Shown here: one piece after another, positions 8,101-23,931 of the stretch
Layout of the letters: each line of letters opens with the position of its first letter
How positions within the stretch are numbered: the stretch's first letter is position 1
From: a virus
Strand: one strand, 5' to 3'
DNA length: 49,950 bases
Virus record (IMG/VR): IMGVR_UViG_3300042544_002488
Location: 1 to 49,950 of that record
Notes under the pieces: generated by a model
Told to the model about the DNA's origin: nothing
Database searches by the model: none
What the model saw: the letters and a program-made list of their open reading frames with translations, nothing else
Program-made: the position numbers and the translations under genes

Positions 8101-8577
8101 ATGACCAAATTAACAGAAACCCCCAATTACATTCCAGCACTTGCCGAGGCGATTCTTCCAAACGGACAGACACTATTTTGCCAGTTCGACAACTACGATG
8201 ACCTCAAGAACTTCCAAATCGAATCAGGCGGAAAGCCTTGCTTGGTTCAGTACGATAGGGATAATAATGTAAAGTTGATTCAGCATGATTATTTCAGGGA
8301 GTGCTTGGATTGGACTAAGGAATATGAAGATTACACAATGTACACGGAACGCCCGTGGCATTTTCTAAAAGACCTGTACGATAATAGCATGATGTATAAT
8401 ATGGATATACTTTACAAGTCACTTCTAAGGTCGTTTGATTGGGACAGAGAAGAATCGAGAGTATTAATTAAAATGGACTTATCTGAGCGTGAGTTTGATT
8501 TGATTGTAATTAATTATCCAGTCGTTAATCAGAATATCGGGAACGGCTTAAACGAAACTATGGGGGTGATTGTATGA
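8101..8577 (+). CDS. Hypothetical protein, 158 aa
   Basis: Acidic, Tyr/Asp-rich soluble protein without recognised motifs. It sits between the DnaA-like pair and a PP-loop enzyme and overlaps the latter's start by four bases. Translation coupling suggests shared expression, not necessarily a shared function. Confidence 0.6.
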   Translation: MTKLTETPNYIPALAEAILPNGQTLFCQFDNYDDLKNFQIESGGKPCLVQYDRDNNVKLIQHDYFRECLDWTKEYEDYTMYTERPWHFLKDLYDNSMMYNMDILYKSLLRSFDWDREESRVLIKMDLSEREFDLIVINYPVVNQNIGNGLNETMGVIV

Positions 8578-9449
8578 AAGATAAATTATTGATTTCATTT
8601 TCAGGAGGCAGAACATCTGCATTTATGACTTGGTGGCTTTTGAAAAACATGAAGCATAAATACGATATGATTGTTGTGTTTGCGAATACAGGGCGTGAAA
8701 GAGAAGAAACATTAGAATTTGTAAACAAATGTGATATTGAGTTTGGGTTCAATACCGTTTGGGTTGAGGCTTTTGTTCACAATCAATCTGGCAAAGGAAC
8801 TACGCATATTGTTACTAACTTTAACAATGCTGAAAGAAACGGTCAGCCATTTGAAGATGTAATTTTCAAATATGGAATACCGAATCAGAATGCCCCTCAT
8901 TGTTCCCGTGAGTTAAAAAAGCAACCTATTATGTCTTATGCCCGTAGTATTGGGTGGAATAAATATCAGACAGCACTTGGTATTAGAAGTGATGAACCTA
9001 AGCGGTTAAATTGGGAAACAAAAAGAAAAAATAATCTGGTATATTTTGCAGAGTTTTTTAATGTTGCTAAAAGCGATGTAAATAAATTTTGGTCAGAACA
9101 ATCTTTTGACTTAAGCCTAAAAAGTTACGAGGGTAATTGTGATTTATGTTACAAAAAAGGACTAAGAAAATTAATGACTTTAATAAAGTATAACCCAGAA
9201 ATGGCTGATTGGTGGAGAGAAATGGAATCAAAATATGAAAATCTTGATGTAAGAAATACAGGCAAAACACCTATTAGATTCTATCGTGATAATATGACAA
9301 TTGATGAAATAATTGAGGAAAGTAAATTGCCATTTGTTGAGGCAGTTGATGAAAGTAAGATTATTGCTACCGGAAAGCAAATGTCAATGTTTGACAATTA
9401 CTTGGACAGCAATTATGGTTGTGTTGAATCTTGTGAAGCATGGGGGTGA
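8574..9449 (+). CDS. PP-loop ATPase, PAPS-reductase (CysH-like) family
   Basis: Adenylating enzyme of the PAPS reductase/ATP-sulfurylase-like fold. The PP-loop SFSGGRTSA is at residues 8-16, followed by MIVVFANTGREREETLEFV, typical of the second nucleotide-contacting strand. Cysteines at HCSREL, NCDLCYKKG and the C-terminal GCVESCEAW could hold an Fe-S cluster. ALGIRSDEPKRLNW is a family-like loop. Genuine sulfate assimilation is unlikely in a phage; related PP-loop enzymes thiolate tRNA or DNA, so nucleic acid modification is the preferred inference. It shares little obvious sequence with the second PP-loop gene at 23041-23931. Confidence 0.82.
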   Translation: MKDKLLISFSGGRTSAFMTWWLLKNMKHKYDMIVVFANTGREREETLEFVNKCDIEFGFNTVWVEAFVHNQSGKGTTHIVTNFNNAERNGQPFEDVIFKYGIPNQNAPHCSRELKKQPIMSYARSIGWNKYQTALGIRSDEPKRLNWETKRKNNLVYFAEFFNVAKSDVNKFWSEQSFDLSLKSYEGNCDLCYKKGLRKLMTLIKYNPEMADWWREMESKYENLDVRNTGKTPIRFYRDNMTIDEIIEESKLPFVEAVDESKIIATGKQMSMFDNYLDSNYGCVESCEAWG

Positions 9450-9714: not shown

Positions 9715-10022
9715 AAATGCCCAATTCTTACACCTACCGATTTTATTACAAGTTCGGATTTTACCTGATGACCTTTATTTGTGCAGGATTAATCGTAGCG
9801 TGGATAACAGCCTCAACACAGCGAGATATTTCCAAGACCAATGAAATGTATTGGCGGAAAGAAGCAGTCACGAACAAGGCGTTATATTTGGTTTCAATTC
9901 ATCAGACTGATTTGGTTATTGACCAGATAACTTCGCAAGAGATGGCGATGTGGGATTTGTATTGTAGTAATCGAGAATTGTTTAAAGTTAATATTGCAAG
10001 GAAGGCGATGGAAACAAATTGA
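9711..10022 (+). CDS. Single-pass membrane protein, 103 aa
   Basis: One hydrophobic segment, FYLMTFICAGLIVAWITA (about residues 17-34), follows a short basic N-terminus, with a ~70-residue hydrophilic helical domain after it. The arrangement resembles an inner-membrane anchored protein, N-terminus inside or outside unresolved. No signal-peptidase motif. A role in lysis or membrane association cannot be decided. Confidence 0.6.
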   Translation: MKMPNSYTYRFYYKFGFYLMTFICAGLIVAWITASTQRDISKTNEMYWRKEAVTNKALYLVSIHQTDLVIDQITSQEMAMWDLYCSNRELFKVNIARKAMETN

Positions 10023-13359: not shown

Positions 13360-13386
13360 ACTGATTAAATGGTTAAATTGTTAGTT

Positions 13387-13430
13387 CCCTGCCTACCTTC
13401 CGAGGGCAGTTAAGCAATATCACAGCAGGG
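13387..13430 (-). other. Bistable intergenic stem-loop
   Basis: On the plus strand CCCTGC (13387-13392) can pair with GCAGGG (13425-13430), or CTGCC (13389-13393) with GGCAG (13405-13409). The two folds exclude each other. On the transcript it sits between the 103-aa and 38-aa genes, followed by GGGAACTAAC, which is also found after the tRNA-like element at 13783-13830. Confidence 0.4.
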
Positions 13431-13438
13431 AGGGGGGA

Positions 13439-13782: not shown

Positions 13783-13830
13783 TCCGGATGTAGGAATCGA
13801 ACCTGCCTGAATACCCTTTGTAAATCCGGA
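13783..13830 (-). ncRNA. tRNA acceptor/T-arm-like minihelix A
   Basis: Read on the minus strand: TCCGGAT, 17 unpaired bases, T-stem GCAGG, T-loop TTCGATT, CCTAC, then ATCCGGA. The acceptor helix is a perfect 7 bp and the T-stem has 4 of 5 pairs, giving the 12-bp acceptor-plus-T stack of a tRNA, but the D and anticodon arms are missing. It lies in the 3' untranslated space of dnaN. A second example is at 17198-17242. Confidence 0.55.
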
Positions 13831-13843
13831 TTAGCCTGATTAA

Positions 13844-14866
13844 TTACTCTGCATACGAACTAAGCATCACAGGCATTATTAGCATATTTGAATTAATCCG
13901 TCCACATCTGTTTGGAGTAGTAAGATTAAGTTCAATTACATTCCCCTTGCAATCCTTCAGGCACTCAATAAGGAATTTCGCATTAAATCCAAATTCCATT
14001 CCGGTTTCTCCATTCCATTCACAGGGGATATTCGTGCTGAATTCTTTAGCGTAGTCAATATCTTGAGTAGAAATAGTCATTTTCTCACTTGTAAGCGACA
14101 AACGGACTTGGTGGGTAGTTTTGTCTGCATATTTATCACAAGCTTGTAATCCGCTTATAATTGCCTGTTTCCCTACCTTAACAATCGTTTCAGTTAGTTC
14201 CGGAATTACATGCCAATAATCCGGATATTTGTCATCTATTAGCCGGGTTTGCAGGTATCCATATTCTAATTGAATACGGGCAATTTCGTGCAATTCGTTG
14301 ATTTCAATTGTACGGATTTCATTGCAGAATTTTTGTGCAACAATTAATGGCAAAACTATTCCCGGATTTCCTTCTTTATGGTACGGATTGGGTTCAAATT
14401 TCATTCTGTGAGCATCTGTTGAACAAATATCTTTGCCTACGAATATCCCATTCATAGCAGGTTTGTGTTCTTCTTTTGATGCAAATGGAGTGAAATCGGT
14501 TAAAACAGGTAAGGTAGTTTTGATACCGGGCTTGAATTCAGCAATTTTTGGAAAGTCATCAGGATTTTGCCCTACGATTTTCATAGTCATATCCCCGGTA
14601 CTGAATACGATTTCGCAATTTTCACCTACCTGCATTTCGACAATTCTATTCCCTAAAGTTTTAAGGGTATCCATAAACTCCCTAAAATCAATACAGATTT
14701 CAGGTAGGTTTTTGTAGGGAATATGTACGGTTTGCTCAAGGTTTGTTCCTGTAAATCCGGTTGAATCTAATTTTACACATTCACAAATATGTAGTGTGTG
14801 GCGTTTTGGAATTACTACCTGCATTGGAGATAGCATTTTGATTAAGAAAGAAGGATTGATTTTCAT
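13844..14866 (-). CDS. dnaN: DNA polymerase III beta sliding clamp
   Basis: Ring-shaped processivity factor. The 340-aa length and three-domain organisation fit bacterial beta clamps. Recognisable stretches are VQVGENCEIVFSTGDMTMKI-type strands in domain 1, the start of domain 2 with NGIFVGKDICSTDAHRM (the family signature (V/A)ATDGHRL-like), and a C-terminal IELNLTTPNR...MLIMPVML ending that forms the partner-binding pocket region. No phage DNA polymerase is in the window, so its partner is elsewhere or is the host enzyme. It follows radC-like and parB-like genes with the shared TTCACC leader. Confidence 0.9.
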   Translation of the reverse strand: MKINPSFLIKMLSPMQVVIPKRHTLHICECVKLDSTGFTGTNLEQTVHIPYKNLPEICIDFREFMDTLKTLGNRIVEMQVGENCEIVFSTGDMTMKIVGQNPDDFPKIAEFKPGIKTTLPVLTDFTPFASKEEHKPAMNGIFVGKDICSTDAHRMKFEPNPYHKEGNPGIVLPLIVAQKFCNEIRTIEINELHEIARIQLEYGYLQTRLIDDKYPDYWHVIPELTETIVKVGKQAIISGLQACDKYADKTTHQVRLSLTSEKMTISTQDIDYAKEFSTNIPCEWNGETGMEFGFNAKFLIECLKDCKGNVIELNLTTPNRCGRINSNMLIMPVMLSSYAE

Positions 14867-16958: not shown

Positions 16959-17165
16959 TTATAATTGAATAACACTACAATTGTACGGAATATCCCGTAA
17001 CTCGATACGGCCATAATTGGAACTGTAATATCCCTGTGATGAATATCTATTCCGGAAATTAATTAAGGCCCTTAGTACCTGGATATGTCCTTTGTAAACG
17101 GTTTGTTCTCTGTTTAAATCAAATCCATCGGGTGATAAGATTCTGAATTTTGGTAATTTTTTCAT
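16959..17165 (-). CDS. Conserved-looking small protein, 68 aa
   Basis: The product has the pattern PKFRILSPDGF ... FRNRYSSQGYYSS ... GRIELRDIPYNCSVI, a motif set I associate with small proteins of Bacteroidota mobile elements, without known function. The QGYYSS block is distinctive. Downstream of minihelix B on the transcript, with the shared TTCACC leader in between. Confidence 0.65.
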   Translation of the reverse strand: MKKLPKFRILSPDGFDLNREQTVYKGHIQVLRALINFRNRYSSQGYYSSNYGRIELRDIPYNCSVIQL

Positions 17166-17197: not shown

Positions 17198-17242
17198 GGG
17201 AATAGCAGGGAATCGAACCCTGCTAAATTTCCAAACATTCCC
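17198..17242 (-). ncRNA. tRNA acceptor/T-arm-like minihelix B
   Basis: On the minus strand: GGGAATG, a 12-base spacer, GCAGGG, T-loop TTCGATT, CCCTGC, then TATTCCC. The acceptor helix has 6 Watson-Crick pairs plus G-U and the T-stem has 6 perfect pairs, a 13-bp stack capped by a canonical T-loop. As in element A the D and anticodon arms are missing. It occupies the gap between the 145-aa and 68-aa genes. Confidence 0.6.
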
Positions 17243-17253
17243 GGAAATAGGTT

Positions 17254-17691
17254 TTAATTACCTATGTAATTTTTATAGGTTTTTTTGGAAAGGTTCCGCT
17301 TGAAATAGGCCCTTAGCGTATCCCCTGTATTATAAATGTGATTCCCGTCTTTGTCCGTTTCTTCTCTCAGGTTATCCCATATAATTGATTTTAGTGCCTG
17401 ACAAGCTGCGGGCCTGTATTCTGTGGGGAAATATTGACCGGTACAGTATTTTAATTCCTGTGATTCATTCAAAGTCAACCGTCCGGAATTCTTACTCAAG
17501 TATTCAGTTAATTTTTGATCTAAATCTGAACCCAACCGGATAAAAGCAAGGCTCAACAATTCTCTAAAGTCGTGTAGGTCCTTTGTAATTTCACGCATTT
17601 CAGCGAAATAAATTTTACGGTCCCCATAGTCGGCAAATGATAAGCCTGGTTTTTGATTTGCGAATTGGATTAATTTTTCTACTGTGTTCAT
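17254..17691 (-). CDS. Hypothetical protein, 145 aa
   Basis: Soluble helical protein (VEKLIQFANQKPGLSFADYG at the start; YFKRNLSKKTYKNY basic at the end). The middle has ELKYCTGQYFPTEYRPAACQ. No family known to me. The shared leader form TTCACCTAATTAAAACC precedes the start. Confidence 0.6.
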   Translation of the reverse strand: MNTVEKLIQFANQKPGLSFADYGDRKIYFAEMREITKDLHDFRELLSLAFIRLGSDLDQKLTEYLSKNSGRLTLNESQELKYCTGQYFPTEYRPAACQALKSIIWDNLREETDKDGNHIYNTGDTLRAYFKRNLSKKTYKNYIGN

Positions 17692-17749: not shown

Positions 17750-17920
17750 TTAATGATTTTGGGCAAATTTCCAAACATTGTAATAAGTGGTCAAATAGCC
17801 TGAATTTTCGTACTTTGATTCTAAAAACCTGTTAAGGCTCATTATATCAAAATATCCCTCTGATGTGTACTCAAATAGCAATTGAGTGAATAGGTTTTTT
17901 TCTTTTGGAGTTAAAAACAT
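17750..17920 (-). CDS. Hypothetical small protein, 56 aa
   Basis: A short gene starting at 17920 after the shared leader (TTTCACCCTTAAAACC). The product starts MFLTPKEKNLFTQLLFEY and is aromatic-rich and helical (SLNRFLESKYENSGYLTTYY). It fills what would otherwise be a 250-base gap, and codon use matches neighbours. Confidence 0.55.
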   Translation of the reverse strand: MFLTPKEKNLFTQLLFEYTSEGYFDIMSLNRFLESKYENSGYLTTYYNVWKFAQNH

Positions 17921-23040: not shown

Positions 23041-23931
23041 TTATTTACCACATAAAAGACCGCAAGATGTTATTTGAAGCATATCCTGAAAGTCTGTACC
23101 ATCATTTGTGTTTATTGATTCAAAATTCATTTTTAACTGCCTTGTCTTTTCAATAAATTTTACAATTGAATCTGTCCTTTTATTAAATATTTCATCAGAC
23201 CTATCCGATATGTTTTTAAGTGAATTGTCTTTGCCGTTAAAAAAATATTCAGAAACATTATGCTCCCATCCTTCATACTCCCAAAACATTTCTGGGTGAT
23301 GTTCAAGCAATCCAATCCATTCGTAGAGGCGTTGATTAAAGCACATAGAACAATTTGTCCTTGACCTCCAAGCGAACAAAGCATCAATATCCCACTCCTT
23401 AAATGTATTTTTTATGTATTGTTCATCGCATTTTAAAACTACTGAATCCCATAGTCTTTGCCAAAAGAATACAGGAGGTTTTAATTTCGCTTTGTGATTT
23501 ATTTCATATACCATAGGCAGTGTTATACCTTCTTCGATTAGTGGATAAATAGGAGTTATATTCTTGTACCTAAAGTTATTGTATCCAATTCTATTTTCAT
23601 CTGCTCTAATTCCATAATAAACAAGCGTTTCCCCCTTACCAATAAACTTCTCCATTGGCTCTATTTTTGCCATACGAGTACAATATCTGGCTTGTCTTGA
23701 AGGTAAAAACCAGTTCATTTCATATTCTATAATTTCCTTCAAATCTTCACCAACCCTAATAATAGGTTTGCCTAAGTATGATTCTACTTTGTCTATCCAC
23801 TGTATAACTTCTGGCAATTCTTGACCAGTAGGATTAAACATAAACTCATAATCAATGTTTGGCTCTCTATTCAATTGAATCAAAGCCGTTGCTAAACTAT
23901 CCTTTCCGCTTATTGGAATTATATGCCTCAT
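23041..23931 (-). CDS. PP-loop ATPase, PAPS-reductase-like (second copy, divergent)
   Basis: PP-loop IPISGKDSLATA (residues 5-16) with the canonical SGxDS signature, followed by YEFMFNPTGQELPEVI. It contains FLPSRQARYCTRMAKI and GIRADENRIGY, typical of phage PAPS-reductase-family proteins, and NCSMCFNQRLYEW with a CxxC pair. The C-terminus ends CGLLCGK. It is not a simple duplicate of the gene at 8574-9449; conserved blocks differ. Thiolation or another adenylation-dependent nucleic acid modification is the inferred role. It is the first gene after the 24477-24508 promoter. Confidence 0.8.
   Translation of the reverse strand: MRHIIPISGKDSLATALIQLNREPNIDYEFMFNPTGQELPEVIQWIDKVESYLGKPIIRVGEDLKEIIEYEMNWFLPSRQARYCTRMAKIEPMEKFIGKGETLVYYGIRADENRIGYNNFRYKNITPIYPLIEEGITLPMVYEINHKAKLKPPVFFWQRLWDSVVLKCDEQYIKNTFKEWDIDALFAWRSRTNCSMCFNQRLYEWIGLLEHHPEMFWEYEGWEHNVSEYFFNGKDNSLKNISDRSDEIFNKRTDSIVKFIEKTRQLKMNFESINTNDGTDFQDMLQITSCGLLCGK

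Follow-up and report, generated by a model that had tools for sequence, protein, structure and literature searches.

Our computational analysis revealed that a 45-base RNA of a phage contig, located between two genes on the minus strand (17242-17198) and folding like the top half of a tRNA only, belongs to a widespread, previously undescribed family of phage RNA elements. The contig, a whole IMG/VR record of 49,950 bases (IMGVR_UViG_3300042544_002488), is referred to as the window and the RNA as element B. The members of this family are likely to be natural tRNA minihelices that serve as substrates of RNase P/RNase Z and punctuate polycistronic phage mRNA. Element B and its flanking genes comprise the following features, where R1 denotes the covariance model described below:

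17254..17691, minus strand: upstream gene of 145 aa, no family match, stop codon 11 nt before element B
17242-17236, minus strand: 5′ strand of the acceptor-like helix, GGGAATG (sequence, fold, R1 match)
17235-17224, minus strand: 12-nt linker, TTTGGAAATTTA (sequence)
17223-17205, minus strand: T-arm of 6 bp, GCAGGG/CCCTGC, with the loop TTCGATT (sequence, fold, R1 match), composed of GCAGGG (17223-17218), TTCGATT (17217-17211), and CCCTGC (17210-17205)
17204-17198, minus strand: 3′ strand of the acceptor-like helix, TATTCCC (sequence, R1 match)
16959..17165, minus strand: small downstream gene of 68 aa, no family match, start 32 nt after element B

The two helices of element B comprise 7 and 6 bp, respectively, and add up to 13 bp, which can be counted as 12 bp in the register of R1. 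In that register, position 17198 is the discriminator base and is followed by CTAA. A preceding sequence-only reading had described exactly these stems, the loop, the 13-bp stack, and the 12-base spacer, and all of them were confirmed to the base (as minus-strand sequence). The RNA fold was calculated at -17 kcal/mol (z = -3.0), a value that none of 200 shuffled sequences equaled. The T-loop motif TTCRANY with its closing G53-C61 pair is present as TTCGATT closed by G-C, and the acceptor/T stack of about 12 bp ends at the T-loop, which is a feature of RNase P substrates. At its 3′ end, the element reads C-C-T-A, with a C at position 73. Instead of the D arm and the anticodon arm of a cloverleaf, element B has the 12-nt linker. 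ARAGORN detected no tRNA gene in the window or in its relatives, and the decay of the elements from nearby parent tRNA genes was thus not upheld. An Rfam scan of the record gave no match at the cutoff, tRNA included. The sole Rfam match in the region of element B was that of the T-arm tip to tmRNA (model positions 347-363), which at 11.4 bits lies far below the cutoff, and neither the tmRNA family model nor the tag-coding domain matched element B at the cutoff. The hammerhead core CUGANGA...GAAA with its three helices is not present at element B in the window. The element is identical in two near-identical contigs.

Two side observations were made in the window. An identical 15-mer, AATGTTTGGAAATTT, occurs on the minus strand at 17225-17239 and 17765-17779, the first copy falling in the acceptor and linker of element B and the second in the final part of a small ORF; a copy event was rejected, the shared part being linker and acceptor only. 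Furthermore, two genes related to phosphoadenosine phosphosulfate reductase (8574-9449 and 23041-23931) lie on opposite strands.

The operon of element B contains a second copy and a third candidate:

13844..14866, minus strand: gene before element A, encoding a sliding clamp (DNA polymerase III beta-like; Pfam PF02768/PF00712, PHROG 947)
13783..13830, minus strand: element A, TCCGGAT - 17 nt - GCAGG TTCGATT CCTAC - ATCCGGA, tail ACTAAC
13386..13431, minus strand: element C, TCCCTGC - 15 nt - CTGCC CTCGGAA GGTAG - GCAGGGA, tail ACTAAC

Element A, already regarded in the sequence-only reading as a copy with the same TTCGATT loop in the same operon, proved to be real, with an R1 score of 19.6 bits (E = 0.008, E-values being rough). 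Element C lies 7 nt after a stop codon and has the diverged loop CTCGGAA. It is probably the third minihelix member, an assignment that is tentative because R1 misses it.

Four more distant relatives of this phage were found by ParB- and gene-based searches (L012, L013 on the same contig as L006, L014, and L015). Element A is kept after the clamp gene in all four, and the clamp proteins are 56-59% identical to that of the window. The acceptor helix, TCCGGAT/ATCCGGA in the window, reads TCCGGAA/TTCCGGA in L013 and L014, TCCGGGA/TCCCGGA in L012, and TCCGGGA/TTCCGGA, with one G-U, in L015. Pair 7 has changed from U-A to A-U, pair 6 from A-U to G-C (G-U in L015), and a C-A mismatch in the T-stem is U-G in relatives. 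These differences amount to compensatory changes. Additional minihelices are found at other gene junctions of the relatives, such as TCCTGCT...TCGGG TTCGATC CCTGA AGCAGGA.

Members of the family were collected from IMG/VR with two patterns. The first, a T-arm followed by an imposed tail RCTAAC, matched at least 120 stretches; among the matches listed, many were full or odd tRNAs and roughly a quarter were minihelices, often with the 11-nt linker AYGGTnnnnAG. The second pattern combined linker and T-arm without tail and acceptor, and its matches include some related contigs. Among the matches listed, 80 were distinct and had enough flank, 28 being ARAGORN tRNAs and 52 non-tRNA. At least five of six acceptor pairs were formed in 50 of the 52 non-tRNA matches listed and all six in 24, compared with 12% and 2%, respectively, when the 5′ and 3′ halves were exchanged between matches. 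In an alignment of 24 elements from unrelated phages, 99% of the cells were paired, with 111 two-sided changes versus 30 in shuffles and a covariation score of 0.98 versus 0.18; acceptor pairing was partly a selection criterion for this alignment, while pairing at the three variable T-stem positions was not. From the 24 elements, which include neither A nor B, we built the covariance model R1. Applied to the window and its relatives (129 kb), R1 returned element B as the best match, spanning 17241-17193, with 33.4 bits and a rough E-value of ~3e-7. Since matches to the T-arm only reach about 19-20 bits, approximately 14 bits of the score of element B come from acceptor and linker.

A loose descriptor finds about one perfect-acceptor match per shuffled window, as would be expected if the minihelices were chance folds picked by eye, and the fold alone would therefore not settle the reality of element B. 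The family evidence does. Apart from the E-value that the independent model assigns to element B, a strict descriptor detected 67 distinct elements in 2.46 Mb of fetched DNA, with contigs that include relatives of one another, and none in one dinucleotide-shuffled copy. The genome-wide comparison envisaged with the original observation thus did not uphold a chance frequency. At the family level, chance is refuted by the R1 score, the strict descriptor, and the acceptor pairing in 50 of 52 matches, and we assign it a negligible probability.

The T-loop TTCGAYT occurs in 66 of the 67 family members. The 37 elements whose linker measures 11 nt have a nearly invariant GG and usually an A just before the T-stem, the family linker consensus being AYGGTnnnnA; the GG at 17232-17231 of element B fits this pattern. 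The joint is mostly a sixth T-stem pair, G-C (24 of 24 in the aligned set), and L009 carries a family member with a 6-bp T-stem. The 3′ end of the family is R-C-N-A, not RCCA, with C74 in 26 of 50 members of a set not selected on the tail and a C only rarely at position 75. The family corresponds to no Rfam family at thresholds, and no description was found in the full-text papers searched, an incomplete collection without preprints. Separately, T-arms closed by CACTTCC or CGCATCC with the tail ACTAAC were seen in L024, L051, L073, L074, and L075; L075 resembles the tRNA domain of a tmRNA and may be phage-borne or permuted.

The placement of the elements is conserved. None of the 62 elements with sufficient flanking sequence falls within an ORF of at least 100 aa, compared with 33% of random places. 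A same-strand stop codon precedes the elements by a median of 7 nt, and the next start follows at a median of ~26 nt. Gene neighbors on both sides are present for 58% of the elements versus 6% on the opposite strand and 14% at random places. Element B likewise sits on the coding strand of a gene junction, 11 nt after a stop. These data also bear on the view that the elements are worn remnants of tRNA genes or pieces of att sites. Phages do carry tRNA genes and tRNA-derived att sites, and partial tRNAs are common. However, most elements have no tRNA genes near them, their linkers are of a defined 9-14 nt type unlike random deletions, both helices co-vary, and the elements lie on one strand at gene junctions, so that such an origin is very improbable. 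The presence of more than one copy in an operon and the lack of relatedness among the acceptor sequences speak against a function as integration (att) site. The earlier proposal of a real design rather than tRNA debris holds up well, with compensatory changes throughout the family, without parent tRNA genes, and with a conserved position after stop codons.

Some phages carry whole arrays of minihelices. R1 matched ten times on one strand of Mycobacterium phage Fowlmouth (L249, NC_048734) between 33.8 and 40.6 kb, eleven times on one strand of another record of 71.5 kb, and eight times on one strand of Mycobacterium phage Cuke. Between Fowlmouth genes 38 and 59, 7 of the 11 gaps of at least 60 nt contain an R1 match; in the other and nearby gaps, three divergent or expanded minihelices were recognized by eye (L249 5519, ~7994, and 11058). 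The versions missed by the model have the loop TGCGAGT, or a linker enlarged by additional hairpins or long insertions. In Fowlmouth, a second hairpin of 6-10 bp and changing sequence follows 3-5 nt after all eight elements checked and sits between minihelix and ribosome-binding site. For elements in general, a downstream hairpin was found in 32 of 158 cases versus 10% at random; it is clear in the Fowlmouth lineage only.

A related narrower pattern, applied to 257 Gb of genomes from bacteria and archaea, matched only seven times, five of the matches being from Bacteroidota. The match in Dysgonomonas has Mu-like transposition genes as neighbors, and that in Epilithonimonas has in its vicinity a CI-like repressor as well as a large protein with a match to a phage family; because of these neighbor genes, both look like prophages. 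The Epilithonimonas family has a match in 10 of 100 genomes. No R1 match was obtained in T4, phi14:2, crAss001, phiKZ, and P-SSM2, and those in phi38:1 and SPO1 were T-arm-only matches. Streptococcus prophages also carry the element. The minihelix of Streptococcus phage Javan414 (L265, 2984-3031) lies upstream of the terminase genes in a stretch of ~900 nt without annotated genes. Minihelices were also seen in L152, L207, L231, and L232, and pairs ~150 nt apart occur in related contigs. Because the Streptococcus prophage elements lie in this gene-poor stretch, not every member is simple punctuation. Their single or paired copies would suit released small RNAs with a decoy function in trans, aimed at tRNA enzymes, EF-Tu, the CCA-adding enzyme, or tRNA-cutting defense nucleases, and so would the tRNA-like shape and the many copies per phage. 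Such RNAs would nevertheless have no need for coding-strand sites a few nucleotides past stop codons at many junctions, and decoys for anticodon nucleases are not an option because there is no anticodon loop. We regard a role in trans as quite unlikely for the family.

A pointer toward transcript cutting comes from hammerhead ribozymes. Type I hammerheads occur between same-operon genes in relatives of the phage, where they score below Rfam's cutoff (28.8 bits for one scored):

L006, 5439-5500 and 6563-6616: type I hammerheads
L014, 9297-9355: type I hammerhead
L012 and L015, ~9734-9787: type I hammerheads

In L013/L006, the orthologue of the gene upstream of element B (74% identical) is followed by a type I hammerhead and no minihelix. 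This replacement concerns one orthologous junction, and the gene after the junction is not conserved. In L269, which encodes a homologue with 45% identity to the upstream protein, the stop codon of this gene is not followed by an element. With model matches as the criterion, hammerheads were present in 10 of 99 fetched loci with minihelices versus 1 of 131 without (p = 0.001, an optimistic value since related contigs were counted separately); a Fisher test with a too strict minihelix descriptor was not significant (p = 0.20). Hammerheads were seen in only ~10% of minihelix loci. Hammerhead and minihelix share a strand in each of the 14 loci in which the two were mapped, five hammerhead hits reach Rfam's cutoff, and the distance of hammerheads from stop codons is similar to that of minihelices. 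Perreault et al. (2011, PMC3088659) proposed that hammerheads flanking prophage genes serve to cut long transcripts of phages.

An uncut minihelix might also act as a stable mRNA block that halts 3′ exonucleases, protects the 5′ region lying downstream, or determines translational coupling. tRNA-like ends are known to protect some viral RNAs, and a stable rod placed right after stops and before the next start would suit this purpose. A plain hairpin would suffice for it, however, whereas the strictly kept TTCGAYT loop, the linker GG, the G-C closing pairs, and the constant rod length are what tRNA-binding enzymes read, and the co-occurrence with self-cleaving hammerheads points to cutting. An uncut block is therefore unlikely, albeit the least improbable of the alternatives.

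The fold, the family with its covariation, the placement and strand, the arrays, and the association with hammerheads, including one replacement, are results of computation. As the simplest account of them, we infer that host RNase P, perhaps together with RNase Z, cleaves the transcript at the elements. In the RNA, the acceptor-like helix (6-7 bp) would stack on the T-arm (5-6 bp), giving a continuous rod of ~12 bp (13 in element B). The tRNA elbow is formed by G18-G19 of the D-loop with the T-loop (PMC4810234). The linker GG of the minihelices probably docks on the T-loop in a like manner. Host RNase P, already brought up in the sequence-only reading, would recognize the elbow, the T-loop, the 12-bp ruler, and the 3′ R-C nucleotides. 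Its cut would fall on the 5′ side of the helix, just past the stop codon of the upstream gene, and a second cut, behind the discriminator base, may be made by RNase Z. Polycistronic mRNA would in this way be divided into shorter mRNAs, and neighboring genes could therefore differ in mRNA stability or translation. In Fowlmouth, a cut on the 3′ side would leave the second hairpin at the 5′ terminus of the following mRNA as a cap.

The proposed substrates have several counterparts. The polycistronic RNA of mitochondria is punctuated by tRNAs. There, too, tRNA shapes lie between genes on the coding strand and cutting by tRNA-maturation enzymes is expected, but the mitochondrial ones are complete, working tRNAs, whereas minihelices cannot decode. 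In PMC5435911, RNAs are described as being released from long transcripts. Model RNase P substrates consist of acceptor stem, T-stem, and T-loop hairpins (McClain, Altman and co-workers, reviewed in PMC11143913). Like the minihelices, they have an acceptor helix stacked on a T-arm with T-loop, ~12 bp in all, and neither D nor anticodon arm, and they end in a 3′ R-C, the C of which (C74) is present in 26 of 50 minihelices of the set not selected on the tail; they are, however, laboratory constructs, whereas minihelices are natural, lie in phage operons, and have a GG linker and no CCA end. M3 RNA and the C4 antisense RNA of P1/P7 are phage RNAs cut as substrates by RNase P (PMC11143913), and minihelices would share this handling by the host enzyme, but the former are single RNAs and the latter a repeated intergenic family. 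Phage and prophage hammerheads (PMC3088659) resemble minihelices in junction type, strand, operons, and the proposed role in transcript cutting; they have an unrelated fold and cut themselves, whereas minihelices would need host enzymes. The tRNA-like domain of tmRNA likewise has acceptor, T-arm, and a D-loop-like linker without anticodon arm, but tmRNA contains a long mRNA-like part as well and carries alanine on a CCA end, and no match was obtained at the cutoff. The 3′ tRNA-like structures of plant RNA viruses and mascRNA/menRNA also recruit tRNA enzymes, RNase P included, by tRNA mimicry; they differ in folds and hosts and are located close to the 3′ ends of RNAs, whereas minihelices recur between the genes of a phage.

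On balance, we lean slightly toward a broader proposal: phages of several bacterial phyla may have evolved, or may exchange, the minimal tRNA top half as a portable "cut here" sign, which host RNase P/Z would read and which hammerheads could replace. It would be used for operon-wide mRNA punctuation, in one lineage with a 5′ capping hairpin for the next gene. Because two unrelated RNA devices occupy equivalent junctions, selection is suggested to act on the cut itself, and the phage-borne hammerheads would gain a testable role. As Fowlmouth and Cuke are cultured phages of M. smegmatis mc2 155 with 8-10 copies, the idea is directly testable. If true, it would represent, to our knowledge, the first natural and widespread use of a bare acceptor/T-arm minihelix, which has until now mainly served as an RNase P substrate in the laboratory, and it would explain how some phages divide their long transcripts at almost no genetic cost.
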